Part shown: in pieces, positions 10,376 to 50,575 of the stretch
How positions within the stretch are numbered: position 1 is the first letter of the stretch
Layout of the letters: each line of letters begins with the position of its first letter
Assembly (NCBI RefSeq): GCF_016097415.1
Contig: NZ_JAEHGE010000001.1
Location: 1,160,914 to 1,224,913, forward strand
Reading direction: 5' to 3'
Length of the DNA: 64,000 nt
Source of the DNA: a sulfur-oxidizing endosymbiont of Gigantopelta aegis
Lineage (GTDB): Bacteria > Pseudomonadota > Gammaproteobacteria > GRL18
Position numbers and translations under genes: made by a program
The notes under the pieces: model-generated
Seen by the model: only the letters and a program-made list of their open reading frames with translations
Database searches by the model: none
Told to the model about the DNA's origin: nothing

Positions 10376-13033
10376 ATGAGAATGGACAAACTAACCAGTA
10401 AATTCCAACAAGCCATTGCAGATGCGCAAAGTCTGGCAATTGGACGTGATCACCAGTTTATCGAATCCATCCATGTGATGGTGGCACTATTGGATCAAGA
10501 CAATGGTACAGCCAGACATTTATTGACGCAATCCAATGTCAATATCAACCTATTACGCTCCCACTTAGCCAAAGCACTGGATCAAATGGCCAGCATCGAA
10601 GGTTTCGCCGGTGATGTGCAAGTGTCGCCCGAACTGACCCGTCTGTTGAATATGACCGACAAACTGTCTCAGCAACGTAAAGATCAATATATTTCCAGCG
10701 AACTCTATATTTTGGCTGCCACCGAAGACAAAGGTCAATTGGGTAGTATTTTAAGTGAGTTAGGTGCAAGCAAGGCAAATATTGAGCAGGCCATTGATAA
10801 TATGCGTGGTGGTCAAACAGTAAACGATCCCAATGCTGAAGAACAACGTCAGGCCTTAGAAAAATACACCATCGATCTAACCGAAAGAGCCGAACAGGGC
10901 AAACTTGATCCCGTCATTGGTCGTGATGATGAAATTCGTCGCACCATCCAGGTCTTGCAACGTCGAACAAAAAACAACCCGGTATTAATTGGTGAACCCG
11001 GGGTAGGAAAAACGGCGATCATTGAAGGTCTAGCACAGCGTATTATCAATGGTGAAGTCCCCGAAGGTCTAAAGCACAAGCGTATTTTATCTTTGGACAT
11101 GGGTACCTTGATCGCCGGTGCCAAATTCCGTGGTGAATTTGAAGAACGCTTAAAAGCTGTTCTCAGTGACCTGTCTAAACAAGAAGGTAGCATCATCCTC
11201 TTTATTGATGAACTGCATACCATGGTTGGAGCAGGTAAAGCCGAAGGCTCTATGGATGCCGGTAACATGCTAAAACCCGCCTTAGCACGAGGCGAGTTAC
11301 ATTGTGTTGGTGCAACAACCCTGGATGAGTATCGCGAATACCTGGAAAAAGATGCCGCCTTAGAACGTCGTTTCCAAAAGGTCTTGGTCGAAGAGCCAAC
11401 TCTGGAAGATACCATTGCCATCTTGCGTGGACTGAAAGAAAAATACGAACTACATCATGGTGTCGATATCACCGACCCTGCGATTGTGGCGGCGGCAACC
11501 TTATCACAGCGTTATATCACGGAACGTAAATTACCCGATAAGGCCATTGATTTAATCGACGAAGCCGGTAGTCGCATTCGTATGGAAATTGATTCCAAAC
11601 CCGAAAAAATGGATCGCTTAGAGCGTCGCATTATTCAGCTTAAAATTGAGCGTGAAGCCTTAGGTAAAGAATCTGACCCCGCGTCTAAAAAACGCTTAGG
11701 TATCTTGCAGGAAGACATTGCCGAGTTAGAATTTGACTATTCAGAACTGGAAGAAATCTGGAAGTCAGAAAAAGCAGCCGTGCAGGGCACACAGCATATT
11801 AAAGAATCATTAGATCAAGCCCGCAAGGATTTAGAAACTGCGCAACGTGCCGGTGATTTAGGCCGTATGTCAGAATTGCAATATGGTCGTATCCCAGAGT
11901 TAGAAAAACAATTGGATATGGCATCTCAGGCTGAAATGATTGATCAGGACGAACAACCTAAACTTTTACGTAATCGCGTCACCGAAGAAGAAGTGGCCGA
12001 AGTGGTGGCCAAGTGGACAGGCATTCCCGTCGCCAAAATGTTAGAAGGCGAAAATGATAAATTATTACGCTTGGAAGAACAACTTCATGAGCGAGTCGTG
12101 GGACAAGATGAGGCGGTGACAGTTGTTGCAAATGCCATTCGTCGCTCTCGTGCGGGCTTATCCGATCCTAATCGTCCCAATGGTTCATTCTTGTTCCTTG
12201 GTCCTACCGGTGTCGGTAAAACCGAACTGACCAAAGCCTTGGCCATGTTTCTTTTTGATACTGAAGCGGCCATGGTACGTTTGGATATGTCAGAATTCAT
12301 GGAAAAACATGCGGTGGCACGTTTGATTGGCGCACCTCCCGGCTATGTCGGTTATGAAGAAGGCGGTTATCTTACCGAAGCCGTTAGACGTAAGCCTTAT
12401 TCCGTTATTTTGTTAGACGAAGTTGAAAAGGCGCATCCTGATGTGTTTAATGTTTTACTTCAGGTCTTGGATGATGGGCGCTTAACCGATGGTCAGGGCA
12501 GAACGGTTGACTTTCGCAATACCGTAATCATTATGACATCTAACCTGGGCTCACAACGTATTCAGGAACTGAGCATGTTGTCATCCGGTAAAAAGTCCGC
12601 GAGCAATTCGGCTGAACAAGCCAAAGCGGAGACTGAAGCGGAATATCAATTAATGAAGTCAGAAGTAATGGAAGTCGTTGAACAACACTTCCGCCCTGAA
12701 TTCATTAACCGTATCGATGATGTTGTCGTCTTCCATCCTTTGGGAAGAGAAGCGATTAATAACATTGCCAAAATTCAGATGCAGGATTTACGTGGCCGTC
12801 TGGAAGAACGTGAACTGGGTATGAGCCTAACCGATGAAGCGATGGCGCACATTAGTGAAGTTGGATATGATCCTGTTTATGGTGCTAGACCACTTAAAAG
12901 GGCCATTCAACAATTGTTGGAAAACCCTTTAGCACAGGAAATCCTAGCCGGTAAATTCATTCCCGGTGATACCATTGCCATCGATGTAATTGACGGTGAT
13001 GTTCAAGGTCGAATGAGCTTTAAAAAGGCTTAG
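10376..13033 (+). CDS. clpB: ATP-dependent disaggregase ClpB
   Basis: 885 residues (E. coli 857). Order of domains: N-terminal double Clp repeat; NBD1 with Walker A GEPGVGKT and Walker B IILFIDE; a long middle coiled-coil (about 410-530) diagnostic for ClpB; NBD2 with Walker A GPTGVGKT; and the C-terminal domain. ClpB works with DnaK to pull aggregated proteins apart after stress. The start is ATG 10376 or ATG 10382, both after AAGGGG. The extra length comes partly from a Ser/Ala/Glu-rich insertion near residues 735-760. Confidence 0.97.
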
Positions 13034-13068: not shown

Positions 13069-13241
13069 CTTACCCCTAATGTAGCTCTCTATTTCGTTTC
13101 CCTACAATTAAACTCTTACCTTCCTGCTCACATAGAACAACGTAGGATGCTGCTGAGGCACGAAGCGCATCAGCAATGTTTAATTAAATATCATAATGAA
13201 TAAAAACACCATTTTTAAATAGGCTATCTTTTTATATGGAA

Positions 13242-13508
13242 TTTTTCCATGTTGGTTGGCTAATATCGGATTAAGTGGAAAGTTTTCCATGTTAGGCGGC
13301 TAATATTGGTTTAAGTGGAAATTATTTAAAATTGACTTTCAGCTTAGGTCGGAATTTTTCCATGTTAGGGCATCTAATATCTGTTTTAGTGGAAAAATTT
13401 CCATGTTAAGGGGGCATATATCGGCTTTAGTGGAAAATATTATTATGTTTTTTGAATTATGCCTTTATTTTCCATGTTTAGGGGGGTAATATCAGTTTAA
13501 GTGGAAAA
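13242..13508 (+). repeat. Five-copy 40-bp repeat with inverted ends
   Basis: Copies at 13242-13281, 13283-13321, 13355-13397, 13398-13437 and 13468-13508. Conserved parts are TTTCCATGTT at the left, TAATATC in the middle, and TTWAGTGGAAA at the right; the outer TTTTCC/GGAAAA are inverted. Spacing is irregular (0 to about 33 bases) and there are no spacers of constant size. A sixth half-like palindrome, GGAAAATTTTCC, follows at 13536. The array fills the space between clpB and the first cassette-type boundary (GTTAGGT at 13561). Function unknown. Confidence 0.85.
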
Positions 13509-13560
13509 TTTAGGCAGTTATTAAAGATTTATCATGGAAAATTTTCCGTTAAAAAAGATC

Positions 13561-13567
13561 GTTAGGT
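13561..13567 (+). other. Left boundary of the cassette array (attC/attI-type core GTTAGGT)
   Basis: GTTAGGT matches the integron core GTTRRRY and stands 13 bases before the first cassette gene, the same relation as in the four following cassettes. What lies to its left is the 40-bp repeat array rather than a recognisable attI or attC stem. Confidence 0.4.
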
Positions 13568-14089
13568 AATGAAATTACAGTGAAAAAAATAAGCTCCATA
13601 ATAATACAGACTTTATTTTTTTGGTCAGCATTTTGGTTTTGTATCCTTTGTTTAGGAGGTAGCTCAGATGTTGCTTTTATGACTGTTTTCCCTCCACTTA
13701 CTTTGTTTATAATTTATATTTTTTTTGGATTTGTAGCCTTACCTATTATAATTTCTTTGGCTATGACTGCATTAATATTTTATTTATTAAATTTTCATGG
13801 TAATTTTGTATATCATAGATTTTATCCACTAATTGTAAATTTTGTTTTCTTAGTTATCTTTTTAATTACATCTGAAATATACCTTCAGTACCAAGTAACA
13901 AAAGCATTAAAAAAAGAAGAACCTAATTGTTTTATTAAGAAATCTTTTATAAAATCATTGCTTTATATGGAGCGTGGATATAGACATACTGTGTATGTAA
14001 AAGATGGTTATGTTTTTAGGTGGAGTTTTCGTGAAAATGAAAAATATTGTCGGATCATAACATAATTCAGTCTATGAGCCGCAAAGAAA

Positions 14090-14290
14090 TTGCTGGGACA
14101 ATGTGTATCAGAGAGCTTCTTTCATAGTTTGAAAACTGAATTGACGCACCATTGTCGATTCAAAACCAGAGTAGAAGCAAAGCAGGCAATATTTGAATAT
14201 ATTGAGGTATTTTATAATCGGGAGCGACTTCATTCGGCTAATGATTATTTGTCACCAGTCGATTATGAAATACAGCAGGAAATAGCTTAA
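14090..14290 (+). pseudogene. IS3 transposase OrfB fragment
   Basis: 66 residues equal to the C-terminal end of the integrase-like (DDE) transposase found at 57368-58168. It includes [11 protein letters not shown], which carries the catalytic Glu of the DDE triad, and the stop codon. Upstream, the reading frame is broken twice relative to that copy (a missing G near 14085 and a missing C near 14104). Confidence 0.85.
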
Positions 14291-14457
14291 ATCGATTGAT
14301 TGAAGAGGGGTAAAGGCGACATAAATGCCGCCCATTACCGTTGACGGCCATCGGCTCCTCAGCCTGTGCCGTGAAGATATTGTAACAGGATCATTACCGT
14401 TGTGAAAATACCTTGGGTGAATGGAACGGCTCTATCGTTCCAGAGGGCAAAGCCCTT

Positions 14458-15509
14458 CTTGATTACCCACAAAGCTCCGCCATATTTCGATAACTATACT
14501 ATAATTATACTATAATTATACTATAATTAAAGTATAGATTATGTGTGGAGTAGAATGATGTCAAAAAATAAAATTCAGTTTCAAGAAGGTTATAGTTTAT
14601 TTGAGCTTTTTAATGATTATGGCACTGACAAACAGTGCCGACAAGCCTTATTTAAATGGAAATTTCCTGATGGATTTGTTTGCCCAGAGTGTGGCAATAA
14701 GACTTATTGCACTCTAGAACATCGCCATCTTTATCAGTGCCACCATTGTCATCATCAGACATCAGCAACCTGTGGGACAATATTTGATAGTACCAAACTG
14801 CCTTTATCTAAGTGGTTTTTAGCGATTCATCTTATGACTCAATTGAAGACAGCGGTTTCAGCATTAGAATTAAAGAGACAGCTTAAGGTAAGCTACAATA
14901 CAGCCTGGAGTATGAAACAAAAGATCATGCAGGTTATGAAAGAACGTGATGACAGTAAACCTTTATCAGGCATCATTCAAATTGATGATGCCTACTGGGG
15001 TGGTGAGCACAGAGGCGGCTCCAGAGGTCGTGGTTCAAAATAAAACACCGTTCGTTGCAGCCGTTTCTACTAATGAAGATGGACACCCGATTGCAATGAA
15101 TTTAAATGTGCTTAAAGGGTTTAAATCCAGTGAAATAAAACGATGGGCACAAACTCATTTAACACCTGGAAGTACTGTTTACTCAGATGGGTTAAATTGT
15201 TTTCCTGCGGTTAAAGAAGCTGACTGTAAGCATGTTCCAATCGTCACGGGTGGTGGTGCGGCAAGTGTTGATAAAATTGAGTTTATCTGGGTTAACACTA
15301 TGATAGGTAATATTAAAAACTCTCTATGAAGGGAAGCTATCATTCCATTAACTCAAAACATTTACCTCGGTATCTTGCTGAATTTTGTTATCGGTTTAAT
15401 AGACGCTTTAACTTAAAAGACATGATGCCAAGGTTTTTATGCGTGGCGATGAAAACGCCACCTATGAATGGAAAGCTCCTAAAAATGGCGGAGCTTTATG
15501 GGTAATCAA
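14458..15509 (+). mobile_element. IS1595-family insertion sequence
   Basis: 1052 bp with inverted ends CTTGATTACCCACAAAGC (left) and, read inward from the right, CTTGATTACCCATAAAGC. An 8-bp direct repeat AAGCCCTT flanks it (14450-14457, 15510-15517), the size known for IS1595. Removing it restores the IS3 sequence GGGCAAAGCCCTTTCTC. A possible excision footprint of the same element type is at 37284-37311. Confidence 0.93.
14555..15504 (+). pseudogene. IS1595-family transposase, two frameshifts
   Basis: The N-terminal zinc ribbon (CPECGNKTYC...YQCHHCHHQTS) and the ISXO2-like DDE domain are clear. IIQIDDAYWGGEHRGG carries the first Asp, and VYSDGLNCF the second. The downstream part continues in another frame after about 15040, and again after about 15325, where SINSKHLPRYLAEFCYRFNR can be read. 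The transposase is therefore not intact. Start chosen at ATG 14555 (ATG 14558 also possible). Confidence 0.85.
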
Positions 15510-15741
15510 GAAGCCCTTTCTCTTCATCTATTTAAAGTTAACATGAGAAACTAAAATGATAGGAAATACAAAATGACAAAAATCACTTGAAACAGCCAAA
15601 AAAATATTTAGAAAACTGTCCGGAAAAGTGTTGACACATCAAAATTCTTTTTACAAGTCAAAAACAAAGCTATTTACCATTAAATGTACTCCTGAACATA
15701 AAGAGTATTGGGAAAACATAGAAAGAAAGTGGGCTAAAAAT

Positions 15742-15871
15742 ACCTAACAAAAATTTGAATTGGATCACTTGGTCTATGCGATTTTTTAAAAAAATTCGAG
15801 TTTTGGTCAAAGAGAGTCATTTTAAACAGTCTCTTTCCTTGACCAAGTGCCCAATTAAATAGGCGTTAGCC
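15742..15871 (+). other. attC site 1 (integron recombination site)
   Basis: The R'' core ACCTAAC (15742) overlaps the stop codon of cassette 1; the R' core GTTAGCC is at 15865. Between them lies a long imperfect stem: AATTGGATCACTTGGTC pairs with GACCAAGTGCCCAATT with one unpaired base, as expected for attC. About 130 bp, a large-loop attC. Confidence 0.8.
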
Positions 15872-15884
15872 AAAGGAATTATTA

Positions 15885-16565
15885 ATGACACTCGGTAGTT
15901 TAATAACCAAAACTGAATCAGTTGAATTATTAAATTCAATTATGCCAGGAGGTAGTAATTGGCATAATGCAAGAAAAACAAATACAGACTGCTTAAATAA
16001 TTGCCCTTGGTCTAAAAAGTGTAAAGGCAATGGTTCTGGTGGTTTTGTGTGCTCTGATGAGTGGGAAAAAGCAGAGCCAACCCCACTAGTTCTGGATGTC
16101 CTGTTTCACGTTCTTAATAACTGGGATTTCTATAATCAAGAAGACTTAAAAGGAATTTCAAAAGAAACTGAATCGGTAAAGAAACTAAGAAATTATGTTT
16201 TTGAATTATCTCATGAAATGGATATTGAGTATGAAGAAGGTGGCGTATCCATAAGGACACATTATTATAGAGAAAGAAAATCAAGTGCCGCTATAAAACT
16301 TAAGAAAAAAGCACTTAATGAAAAAAAAATAGTATGTAAAGCTTGCGAAATTTATTATTATGAAAAACTTTCAGAGCTGGGAATTAAGTTAATAGAGTGT
16401 CACCATTTAATACCAATATCAAGCAGTGAGCATACAGGGAAAACTAAAATATCAGAACTTGTTTTACTTTGTGCAAATTGTCATAGGTTAATACATTCTA
16501 GAAAAGAGCCACTTAGTGTTGAAGAATTACAGAAAATATTAAATTATGAAATGGCTAACAAATAG
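15885..16565 (+). CDS. Cassette 2: HNH endonuclease
   Basis: 226 residues. The C-terminal HNH domain shows CKAC, then ECHHLIPISS (first His pair), then LCANCHRLIH (Asn/His and second Cys pair), a zinc-supported beta-beta-alpha-metal nuclease as in McrA-like restriction enzymes. The N-terminal half has another Cys cluster (CLNNCPWSKKCKG). ATG lies 13 bases after attC 1, and the end overlaps attC 2. It is a candidate phage or plasmid restriction function, inferred from the domain and cassette context only. Confidence 0.75.
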   Translation: MTLGSLITKTESVELLNSIMPGGSNWHNARKTNTDCLNNCPWSKKCKGNGSGGFVCSDEWEKAEPTPLVLDVLFHVLNNWDFYNQEDLKGISKETESVKKLRNYVFELSHEMDIEYEEGGVSIRTHYYRERKSSAAIKLKKKALNEKKIVCKACEIYYYEKLSELGIKLIECHHLIPISSSEHTGKTKISELVLLCANCHRLIHSRKEPLSVEELQKILNYEMANK

Positions 16566-16649
16566 CTGCACCGGACAATTCAAAGCGGCACTTGTTTTGC
16601 TTTCGCAAAAACGTGCCACTTTGAATTGCCGGTGAGCAAGGCGTTAGGA
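16553..16649 (+). other. attC site 2
   Basis: R'' GGCTAAC (16553) and R' GTTAGGA (16643), with stem arms CACCGGACAATTCAAAG and CTTTGAATTGCCGGTG that pair except for one extrahelical A. The GTGCC/GGCAC inner stem and small loop complete a classical attC. Confidence 0.9.
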
Positions 16650-16882: not shown

Positions 16883-17136
16883 TTCACCATTCAAGCCCAT
16901 CATTTTGGTCAGCTTATAATGCACTACCAGTATCAGTACAAAAAGTAGCTGATCAAAATTATGAGCTTCTAAAAGACAACCCTAAACATCCTTCACTGCA
17001 TTTTAAAAAAATAAAACGCTTTTGGTCTGTTCGTGTTGGACTTCATTATCGAGCTTTAGCGATAGAAGTTGATGATGGTCTGCTATGGTTTTGGATTGGG
17101 AGTCACACAGTATATGACAGGTTAATAAAATCCTAA
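16879..17136 (+). CDS. Cassette 3: RelE/ParE-superfamily toxin
   Basis: 85 residues. The pattern LHFKKIKRFWSVRVGLHYRALA, then WFWIGSHTVYDRLI, is typical of the small RelE/ParE fold (cytotoxic translational repressor type). The frame is intact, so this is the only complete toxin-antitoxin pair in the window. It shares its cassette with the antitoxin and ends just before attC 3. In integron arrays such pairs are known to stabilise the array. Confidence 0.75.
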   Translation: MIHHSSPSFWSAYNALPVSVQKVADQNYELLKDNPKHPSLHFKKIKRFWSVRVGLHYRALAIEVDDGLLWFWIGSHTVYDRLIKS

Positions 17137-17188
17137 CCAGAAAATGCACCGGAGGCAAAAAGACGCCCCGATGATTTAGGCGTTATAC
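17131..17188 (+). other. attC site 3 (short)
   Basis: R'' TCCTAAC (17131) and R' GTTATAC (17182), 58 bp, with GGCAAAAAGACGCC forming a small inner stem-loop. The core differs from its neighbours: GTTATAC pairs with the next site's GTATAAC, as expected when a cassette carries its own end. Confidence 0.65.
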
Positions 17189-17194
17189 GTAAAT

Positions 17195-17607: not shown

Positions 17608-17719
17608 GTATAACAAATAAATTAACGCAGACCCAAAAAGTTACGCACCTTTTGTGGCGCTTCGCTATAATGCCACAAAAGGCACAAAACTTTTCGGTCT
17701 GGTTATTAAAGCGTTAAGT
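17608..17719 (+). other. attC site 4
   Basis: R'' GTATAAC (17608) and R' GTTAAGT (17713). A stem is formed by CAGACCCAAAAAGTT and AACTTTTCGGTCTG, and by GCACCTTTTGTGGC against GCCACAAAAGGCAC with loop GCTTCGCTATAAT. The site is a strong folded hairpin. Confidence 0.85.
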
Positions 17720-18423: not shown

Positions 18424-18556
18424 CAAAGTCATGAATTTGATCTCTGGGTCTTAGAGCCAGATCTTTATAGCGATCTTTATAGCCATATATGGACGCCCCA
18501 CGAAAGTCAACTGATTTTGCTCTAAATCTTTTGATTTTTAACTTCATTTGTTAAAT
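18418..18556 (+). other. Possible degenerate attC site 5
   Basis: ACTTAAC (18418) overlaps the restored stop codon of cassette 5, and GTTAAAT (18550) is a GTTRRRY core. The flanks AACAAAGTCATGAA and TTCATTTGTT pair partly. The middle is not a clean stem, so this may be a decayed end of the array. Confidence 0.3.
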
Positions 18557-18906
18557 TCAAAATAAAGTAATCCATTCATCTGAAGGTGGTTGAAGAGCGG
18601 GCTCTTTCTTACCCCCTTGGTCAGATCGCTTTTTTCTATTAATGGGTTATGTTTTCATTTATTTTAGATGCTCACTCCTAATTCCTCATTCGTTCACTTT
18701 TAGAAAAAAATCCAGGCCGCTCACATATATCCGGTCTCATTGTGGCAGTATTTTTAACTGCCGGACCTTGATGAAATACGCACCTTATCGCCTATACACC
18801 CACTCGGTGTTTAACCAATGGCTCGCCAGGCTCTGATAAGGCACGTAAGCCGTTTTTCTCATCCGTTATTGCGACGGGAGGAAAGGTTTTGTTAATTTTT
18901 TATCTT
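18557..18906. other. Non-coding stretch, no gene seen
   Basis: Only a short hairpin (GGCAGT ATTTTTA ACTGCC, 18744-18762) stands out. The part next to the IS110 fragment may be its 3' flank, where IS1111-type members carry a guide (bridge) RNA, but this cannot be shown here. Confidence 0.3.
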
Positions 18907-19050
18907 TTATTCATACTGAGCTGTTATTTTTTTGGGATCATAAATCTCACCTTGTAATATTCGCCAAGCTGCCCGTGTCAATTTGTTGGCCAATGCGACA
19001 TAGGCTTTTCTTTTACCTCGTCTTGCAACTAGCCGCTGCACCCAACAACT
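18907..19050 (-). pseudogene. IS110-family transposase, 3'-terminal fragment
   Basis: About 47 residues read from 19050 down to a TAA at 18907: WVQRLVARRGKRKAYVALAN, then KLTRAAWRILQ. This pattern (K-K-A-x-VALANK-x-AR) is the usual C-terminus of IS110/IS1111 (DEDD) transposases. The rest of the gene is missing. Confidence 0.6.
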
Positions 19051-19485
19051 TAGAGGGTCATTTTTTTTATTAATTGAAGAGGGTCTTTATAGCCACCCAT
19101 TAAATAAAGATTTATATCAAAGCTAAATTGTAAAAAAATTTCTTCTCGAAATGTGAATTTACAAAAATTGAATGTTTTTCAGTGGAGTGGGCAGGGAATG
19201 GGTAGTAAAAGTAGCTGCTAGATGGGGTTGCTCTGCATGACGAACAAGGGGAGGCCTGCACTGTTCTGCTAAGGTGTGTGCTTTGGTGAGCTGTTACGTT
19301 TAAGTCGTGATGGGGACGGTAGAATCGATTTTAAATAATTTCCTACACAAATTAATACCGCGCACCCAATACCGTTTTTGTTTCAGACATAAGGATTTTA
19401 ATGTAAACGTCAATTAAAACCCACGTTCACAATAAGCTTCAGTTAGCTCAAACTATGATCTTCAATTCGTAATTTGGAGATACAA

Positions 19486-24082: not shown

Positions 24083-24182
24083 TCTTAAATTATGGCTGTC
24101 ATCAATTCCATTGTTTGAATGGGTGGCTATGATTGTTGTTTGTTTGAAAAAATATTTTTAAATGATGGGTGTCTGGAATCGC
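24083..24182. repeat. Composite of dispersed short repeats
   Basis: TTATGGCTGTCATCAATTCC (also twice at 29549-29593), GAATGGGTGGCTATGATTGT (also at 28264) and TGATGGGTGTCTGGAATCGC (also at 28294 and 28323) lie in a row. The last unit truncates the recombinase gene on the minus strand. Confidence 0.7.
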
Positions 24183-24295
24183 AAGCAATGTATTAGTAGG
24201 CAAGGGAACCAGTCGGTCTTTATTGCCTTTGGCATTGCGAATATGTACTCGACAATTGATGGCATCAATATCGCCTACTTGTAAACGAAGCCCTT

Positions 24296-25810
24296 TGATG
24301 TGTCAACACTTTTCCGGACAGTTTTCTAAATATTTTTTGGCTGTTTCAAGTGATTTTTGTCATTTTGTATTTCCTATCATTTTAGTTTCTCATGTTAACT
24401 TTAAACAGATGAAGAGAAAGGGCTTTGCCCTCTGGAACGATAGAGCCGTTCCATTCACCCAAGGTATTTTCACAACGGTAATGATCCTGTTACAATATCT
24501 TCACGGCACAGGCTGAGGAGCCGATGGCCGTCAACGGTAATGGGCGGCATTTATGTCGCCTTTTACCCCTCTTCAATCAATCGATTTAAGCTATTTCCTG
24601 CTGTATTTCATAATCGACTGGTGACAAATAATCATTAGCCGAATGAAGTCGCTCCCGATTATAAAATACCTCAATATATTCAAATATTGCCTGCTTTGCT
24701 TCTACTCTGGTTTTGAATCGACAATGGTGCGTCAATTCAGTTTCAAACTATGAAAGAAGCTCTCTGATACAGCATTGTCCCAGCAATTTCCTTTGCGGCT
24801 CATAGACTGAATTATGTTATGATCCGACAATATTTTTCTATGACTATCAGAGGCATATTGGCTACCTCGGTCAGTATGCCAAAGCAATCCATCCATTGGT
24901 TTACGCTTCCATATGGCCATCAGTAAAGCATCATTGACTAGCTTGGCTTTCATTCGCTCATCCATCGACCAGCCAACAATTTGCCTAGAGAATAAGTCAA
25001 TGACAACCGCTAAATATAACCAGCCTTCCTTGGTGGCAATATAGGTAATATCACCCACATAGTAGCGATCAGGTTGAGAGACAGTAAACTCTCTTTCCAG
25101 TAAATTTGGAGATATACGCTTATTATGCTTGGAATTAGTCGTCGCTTTAAAGCGTCTCTTCGTTTTACAAAACAAACCGGCTTTTTTCATTAATCGACCA
25201 ATTCTCCGGCGGCTTATATGAACGCCTTTTTCAGCCAGTTTTCTTTTAAGACGACGGGTTCCATAAGTCTTGCGACTGTCTTCAAACAGTTTTTTAGCTG
25301 CTCAGTAAGCGCTTCATTTTCTTTCTCTCTATCCGTTTTAGGAGAGCTAACCCAATCATAATAGCAACTACGGGAAACATCCATAAAACGGCACAGAATC
25401 GTTACCGGGTAATCTTTAGCCTGATCAGTTATCCATGCGTACTTCACAAAGTTTCCCTTGCAAAGTACGCTGTGGCCTTTTTAATAAATCACGCTCCTGA
25501 ATCACTTTTGCCAATTCTTTTTTCAGACGTTTTACTTCATCATAAATGTGTTCATCACTTCTATTGGCTACCGTCTTCACCGGTTTGGAATATTTACTGA
25601 TCCAGGTATGTAGAGTATTTACATTAACACCTAGCTCCCTGGCAGTCTGAGAAACGGTTGATCCGTCTCATTAGCTAATTTGACAGCTGATTCTTTAAAT
25701 TCTGATGTATAGCTTTTATTCGGTTTTTTTGTTTGATCATTCATTTTAGGTCACACTTTTTATTTTTTAGTTATTTTAAGTTGTGTGTCCGGTTAAGTAT
25801 AGCCACATTA
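24296..25810 (-). mobile_element. IS3-family insertion sequence, copy in recombinase gene
   Basis: 1515 bp, ends TGATGTGTCAACACTTTTCC and, inward from the right, TAATGTGGCTATACTTAACC, both followed by GGACA. The 3-bp duplication CTT flanks it (24293-24295, 25811-25813). Nearly identical to the copy at 57077-58594 but with several single-base deletions. Confidence 0.92.
24586..25740 (-). pseudogene. IS3 OrfA/OrfB transposase genes with several frameshifts
   Basis: OrfB pieces are open at 25214-25447 ([20 protein letters not shown]...), 24732-25190 (DDE core: [52 protein letters not shown]), and on to 24586 in another frame. Compared with the 57368 copy, one T is missing at about 24747, one at about 25248, one G at about 25660 and one A near 25729. 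Neither OrfA nor OrfB is intact. Confidence 0.85.
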
Positions 25811-50139: not shown

Positions 50140-50575
50140 TCATTATTCCTGTTGTGACAATAAAGTGTGACAATGAAGGTGACAATAAAGTAATAAAAAT
50201 TACTAAAAAACTAAAAAATCATTAGAAAAAATTGCTGATAGAACGGAATTTACCAGAACTTGGGCTATTTTCCACTAAAACGCTTGGCATTGTCCACTAA
50301 AGCTTTTATTTAGCTGATAAATCAACTTTGCAACACCACTTCTAATAAATCAACAACATGAGCCTTTCTTGATAAATGTCAAAAATAGCTTCTTTAGGCA
50401 AGAACTTAGGTAATTATTTCGTTAAATAATGCCTCAAAGTGCAATCTTCGTTTCCATTCTTCTTACAGTTTTATTACAATCGCGCTATAGAAAAATACAA
50501 TGATAAAGCCTGTTGCTATTTAAAAATTGCTGCAACCAGAAAAAGGCTTCCCTGAAACTTAAAAGAAATGTGGTT
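50140..50575. other. Intergenic region between divergent DUF1841 and PiT genes
   Basis: No gene. Two half-motifs similar to the right end of the 13242 repeats occur in reverse: TTTTCCACTAAAAC (50269) and TTGTCCACTAAAGC (50290). A possible Pho box is at 50462. Confidence 0.5.
50462..50479 (-). promoter_or_regulatory. Possible PhoB box upstream of the phosphate transporter
   Basis: On the minus strand TTGTAATAAAACTGTAAG agrees with the Pho-box consensus CTGTCATAAAACTGTCAT at 13-14 of 18 positions. It lies about 100 bases before the PiT gene start. Orientation is reversed relative to the gene, so confidence is low. Confidence 0.35.

Follow-up and report, generated by a model that had tools for sequence, protein, structure and literature searches.

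An integron is usually pictured with one attI site, which lies beside its integrase. The crossover box of integron sites is G|TTRRRY (PMC9892861), and attI1 of class 1 integrons carries the upstream repeats DR1 and DR2, which are described as supplementary integrase binding sites favouring attI1 x attC recombination (PMC8946536, PMC9892861). The site that we describe here resembles attI1, as far as the descriptions in these two papers go, in its G|TTRRRY core, its left and right boxes and its extra upstream repeats, but differs in having two to five repeats of 39-40 bp with a sequence of their own, spanning ~100-320 bp, in its confinement to one IntI clade and in its dispersed copies without intI. 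It shares with attIA of Vibrio cholerae the property of being a chromosomal integron attachment site, whereas attIA, in the account given by PMC8946536, has no such repeats. Cassette arrays without a nearby intI are known as CALIN (PMC8618304, PMC12444791), and the locus analysed here is similar in this respect; however, the CALIN origins set out in the relevant parts of these works involve no separate attI, while the clusters reported here start at a recognisable attI, which indicates a specific CALIN origin. Delta-attI-type gene cassettes likewise carry attI sequence outside its customary position, where IntI1 still recombines it (PMC12901181). In that case, however, the sites derived from attI are parts of cassettes in mobile integrons, whereas the sites reported here are complete and each stands at the start of its own chromosomal array. 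Our literature search returned no description of this repeat or of orphan attI copies, and Elsaied 2011, on marine attI sites, may describe some of the sites.

We analysed a window of 64,000 nucleotides (the whole stretch of DNA under study) from the genome of a sulfur-oxidizing endosymbiont of Gigantopelta aegis, in which five repeats occupy the gap between clpB and the first cassette ORF (Table 1). We propose that this array is the attI of one integron family, an orphan whose own integrase gene is absent and which is one of six copies, each with a different cassette, and that the repeats are most likely extra IntI-binding sites; from the sequence comparisons, we give this reading a probability of about 0.92. 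It draws on what was observed directly: the site is homologous to intI-linked sites and has the same junction, it is confined to one IntI clade, and its copies are dispersed.

Table 1. Features of the attI site and its surroundings in the window, and the six attI copies of the genome (positions are those of the window unless given on contig C1).
Feature	Position	Strand	Remarks
clpB, chromosomal, left of the site	10376..13033	+	Pfam ClpB_D2-small, AAA_2, Clp_N
Unit common to C1:742k, 929k and 931k	13120..13561	+	95-96% identity; right end is the core, left end ragged
REP-like short palindromic stretch within the unit	13139..13172	.	copies at C1:142196-142228 and 142255-142285, 94-97%
attI repeat 1	13243..13281	+	repeat alignment, genome search, profile
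attI repeat 2	13283..13321	+	repeat alignment, genome search
attI repeat 3	13356..13395	+	repeat alignment, genome search, profile
attI repeat 4	13397..13436	+	repeat alignment, genome search
attI repeat 5, core-proximal, start of the part conserved across phyla	13468..13507	+	99-bp profile match, 61 bits; alignment A1
Degenerate middle element	13508..13541	+	aligned to its counterpart in intI-linked sites
Left box preceding the core; carries the right arm of the repeat in inverted form	13542..13560	+	9/14 matches, shuffled mean 5.7
Core site GTTAGGT, putative cassette junction G-to-TT (G|TT)	13561..13567	+	similarity of unit copies stops here; profile match to 13566
First cassette ORF, 161 aa	13580..14065	+	no Pfam hit; from 14039 on, an IS fragment replaces the 3' end
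attC site	15743..15869	+	by reading; fold z -3.79
attC site	16561..16647	+	by reading; fold z -8.50
attC-like site	17132..17189	+	87% to L044:6510-6569; fold only z -1.34
attC site	17608..17719	+	fold z -6.00; 96% to L045:12430-12535
attI copy	C1:742k		5 repeats
attI copy, remnant	C1:823k		1 repeat by pattern, 2 by eye
attI copy	C1:927k		3 repeats
attI copy	C1:929k		4 repeats by pattern, 5 by eye
attI copy	C1:931k		5 repeats
attI copy (window)	C1:1174k		5 repeats

The repeats are 39-40 bp long, with start-to-start distances of 40, 73 (or 74, depending on the register), 41 and 71 bp. A degenerate motif pattern allowing up to 3 mismatches gave 3 matches in the window and 0 in 100 shuffles, confirming the five-copy repeat that the initial annotation had seen between clpB and the first cassette. 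Copies 1-2 with their spacer and copies 3-4 with theirs form an internal duplication of ~113 bp (13238-13399 aligns with 13351-13511 at 73%), which is an older event inside the array. The initial annotation had also suggested that each repeat could fold as TTTTCC...GGAAAA; the ends can indeed pair, but single repeats showed no folding advantage over shuffled controls (z -0.07 to -1.73). A promoter scan gave results near chance level. The core, where the first cassette begins, agrees with GTTRRRY, and the similarity between copies halts there. The score of the window site with our full-site profile R1 has to be read considering that this site is one of the rows from which R1 was built (100 positions, 19 sites). 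Among the three initial guesses (a protein-binding array, a small mobile element or an unusual attI-side region), the last one held, and the first one is probably correct as well, with IntI as the likely ligand, while the core, the sister copies and the integrase-linked versions elsewhere had been missed. Right half-motifs near 50269 and 50290, previously placed in connection with a phosphate transporter, do exist, but they were missing from the hits of the full-site profile even with a cut-off of E 10; we therefore treated them as unrelated and discarded the regulatory link.

We searched all 11 contigs of the genome (4.9 Mb; completeness 99.91%) for the repeat, and the pattern found 23 repeats in six groups; the array is thus not the single occurrence that it had been taken for, as the unit is also present at 742k, 927k, 929k and 931k, with a remnant at 823k. 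The surrounding unit of the window is 95-96% identical to those at 742k, 929k and 931k, and the 742k and 931k units are 99.4% identical to each other. On the right edge, the similarity of the five larger copies stops at AAAGATC|GTTA and is followed by five different sequences, and the 823k remnant has the identical junction with a sixth distinct sequence downstream, so that at the six loci the GTT core is followed by a different cassette each time, joined at the same nucleotide. On the left edge, the copies at 742k, 927k, 929k and 931k begin alike at AGTAGTTCTAGACACCC and diverge beyond it, while the window copy is without the ~75 first bp of this end; its similarity to the 929k copy starts at 13088. 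The left end AGTAGTTCTAGACACCC runs into a hairpin-like stretch and is not an inverted repeat of the right end. An 83-bp stretch (L045:9058-9140), which recurs about a dozen times across the genome, abuts the 929k unit beside a Y2_Tnp transposase fragment, and the cassette at the 823k remnant (L046, minus strand, ~6300-5820) contains two small ORFs which by eye look like a toxin-antitoxin pair.

None of the six loci, the window included, has an intI adjoining the attI, and the window site, being homologous to linked attI sites but having no adjacent intI, is therefore called an orphan attI. The genome encodes two intact IntIs (L048, L049), which belong to a far clade and have a different attI, and no intact IntI of the clade linked to the repeats was found in it. 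The other recombinase fragments of this genome matched other clades best, except for a fragment on contig C5 whose weak match (~29% identity) is closest to the repeat clade, at a distance too great to call it an integron integrase. In the window itself, a recombinase fragment of 36-58 aa (24138-24299, minus strand) resembles integron integrases of another clade in their C-terminal part, at 41-47% identity.

We also scanned a genome collection with the pattern TTTCCATGTTN{15,25}AGTGGAAA, which returned at least 119 stretches. Among the 119 matches listed, 25 show the central AATAT together with the right arm of this repeat (assigned by eye), and their hosts are MAGs named Smithella, other Syntrophaceae, Desulfobulbaceae, Desulfurivibrio, Deltaproteobacteria, Gammaproteobacteria and a few others. 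Among these listed matches, tblastn found intI at 8/25 family-like loci versus 0/94 of the remaining ones. In the intI-linked loci, which come from delta- and gammaproteobacterial MAGs, the repeats lie between a divergent intI and the first cassette, and most of the delta sites have two repeats, 81-84 bp apart. Alignment A1 and profile R1 revealed the homology of the window site to these intervening sites, with a common order of repeat, middle element, TTTTCC box and GTT core. Moreover, the distance that separates the last repeat's start from the core is kept in delta, gamma and window sites, with 90-94 bp in 18 intI-linked sites and 93 bp in the window.

We asked how the site is distributed over integron integrases. 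IntI sampling covered the genus (16 genomes), 19 genomes already known to carry the repeat, and the class of G158 (155 genomes), where 64 genomes gave an IntI match and from which 30 listed loci and 40 further places were taken. Among the 62 usable IntIs of this class set, a single-repeat HMM detected repeats at 12 and none at 47, the other 3 having too little upstream sequence; two of those 47, L247 and L254, carry the site according to the full-site profile. In a tree of 103 IntI proteins, built by a quick search without bootstrap, 39 proteins form one clade (SH-aLRT 99) that holds all 35 labelled cases as well as L247 and L254, that is 37/37 testable members, its two remaining members being a 5'-truncated gene (L189) and a gene with no upstream sequence (L256). 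The attI family was found at 0/60 of the testable IntI rows outside this clade.

Counting copies genome-wide and in relatives, and looking beside other integron arrays, had been proposed by the initial annotation; copies are found at the head of cassette arrays, and the repeats are present beside other integron arrays. With R1, 8/16 genomes of the genus carry the site; two of them (G007 and G010) have an adjacent intI, and the loci of the other six genomes, our six loci included, do not. A 22-aa intI-like match beside the copy of G012 (E 0.003) was set aside as probably the repeat itself in translation. The site was found in 6/274 genomes of gammaproteobacteria, including G000 and G007, and in 33/297 genomes of the phylum to which the Desulfobulbaceae MAG G147 belongs. 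These 33 genomes contain 62 copies (three of which, G147:C66, G206:C9 and G161:C141, are also in the model), with a full intI adjacent in 17, a truncated one in 16, none in 26 and a contig end too near in 3, counts in which the incompleteness of MAGs may hide intI genes. Fifteen of the 33 genomes have more than one copy; of these, 10 have a full intI beside a single copy, 5 beside none and 0 beside two. G147, for example, has five attI copies and one IntI gene, and no IntI match at E 1e-30 was found in G159, G560, G622 and G317. Plasmids (72,556 records) gave no real match, the one listed match covering 12% of the query in Paenibacillus, and viral contigs gave none with one strict pattern.

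Across 57 aligned copies from 32 genomes, the information per position was 0.75 bits before the core, 1.75 at the GTT and 0.12 from +7. Pairs within a genome were identical at 0.70 over attI (range 0.29 to 0.97) and at 0.28 downstream, compared with 0.43 and 0.29 between genomes, all values being ungapped. Pairwise alignments end on the right mostly at the core, whereas their left ends lie either at the first repeat or within intI. In one genome (G312), the similarity of three copies hardly extends beyond the 99-bp site, and both edges are sharp.

How should the copies without a full integrase be understood? They could be dead relics of duplicated integrons that lost intI and had no later use, a serious possibility that we put only somewhat below even odds, as a truncated intI adjoins 16/62 copies and some stretches shared between copies extend into intI for several hundred bp. 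Against this, the GTT core is retained in 51/62 copies, different sequences follow the core from copy to copy, and attI is often 85-97% identical within a genome with unlike flanks, sometimes right from the first repeat (G312, G722). We also noticed that orphan copies often keep only codons 1 to 43-65 of intI (L331, L337, L341, L342, L362, L363, L378). In class 1 integrons, the cassette promoter lies within the start region of intI; by analogy, the retained intI start may hold a cassette promoter.

In our preferred reading, that of an orphan attI of one integron family, IntI would bind the repeats and the box of the core, and the attC of an incoming cassette would be joined at the G|TT of the core (G|TTRRRY). 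The site would be duplicated with or without intI, which may have been lost or may never have been copied along, and the orphan site would keep gaining cassettes through an integrase elsewhere, or would have gained them before the loss of intI. An integrase encoded elsewhere in the genome, or since lost, would have acted on the copies in trans. Considering that the six copies are scattered, with different genes after each and none beside the enzyme, attI seems to spread or persist apart from the integrase. A stronger version, which we offer tentatively and consider rather doubtful, is that attI is itself the spreading unit, producing precise copies of ~100-540 bp, with the repeats or a fixed left end as one edge and the core as the other. 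The result would be a many-port integron in which one integrase serves several sites in trans, each founding a cassette cluster that has no integrase of its own; a part in the copying of the unit might then fall to the repeats, which lie at its left edge.

The left box (19 bp before the core, reversed) matches the right arm of the repeat at a mean of 10.2/14 over 19 sites versus 6.9 in shuffles, with 8 to 12 matches per site, L188 being at chance and some others weak. As the box of the core must be held by IntI and the repeats share its arm, the repeats are plausibly held by IntI too, which is therefore the likely repeat-bound protein. In addition, an in-frame ATG-GA start, the reverse of the left arm of the repeat, is present in 16/21 repeat-linked IntI genes versus 4/55 others, showing that the repeats overlap the intI start, so that IntI binding may also regulate intI. 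The same overlap suits autoregulation in another sense: the repeats could be sites of a host or self regulator of intI and cassette transcription, with only the core recombining. We regard this as unlikely, since the distance between repeat and core is fixed, the repeats persist at orphan copies without intI, and the arm of the repeat recurs in the left box of the core. We consider it highly improbable that the repeats belong to a satellite, REP family or CRISPR unrelated to the cassettes and beside them only by chance, in spite of their repetitive nature, inverted ends and several genome copies, given that all six loci, the only ones in the genome, end at a GTT core and a cassette (a fixed neighbour that speaks against REP/BIME), that relatives carry the repeats between intI and cassettes, and that, as already concluded by the initial annotation for CRISPR, spacing is uneven (40 to 74) and CRISPR-type spacers are absent, with repeats 64-80% alike to the reference copy.

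Taken as attI, the sites form a new family with dispersed orphan copies, which are a plausible origin of CALIN. Such a family is recognisable by sequence, is tied to one IntI clade and reaches up to 6 copies per genome with at most 1 full integrase adjacent, offering a concrete and testable origin for integrase-less cassette clusters. The profile built from it is a means to find such ports, and the variation from 2 to 5 repeats is a natural series for asking what the extra repeats of attI do.

The cassettes downstream of the window site were examined by reading chosen attC sites and folding them against shuffles, as two home-made attC finders equalled shuffled controls and were dropped. Four attC sites follow the attI; the folds of three clearly surpass those of shuffled sequence, while the fourth folds weakly, and the window thus agrees with the CALIN definition (at least 2 attC, no intI nearby), with the weak site counted among the four. 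Related attC sites are also found after the attI copies at 931k and 742k. A 599-bp stretch of the window (18476-19074) is 99.5% identical to a stretch at one of the genome's own IntI loci (L055:11155-11753), where it follows a broken attC site; as this stretch, judged by eye, belongs to an IS110-like element, we rejected a cassette exchange between the two loci. Pieces of an IS3-like element lie at 14039-14457 and 15511-15643, and over 30 nearly identical copies of the part at 14039-14345 are present in the genome. The two pieces are split by another insertion (14457-15510), which has a transposase-like frame, of zinc-ribbon type by eye, and a 97% copy at L046:9596-10671.
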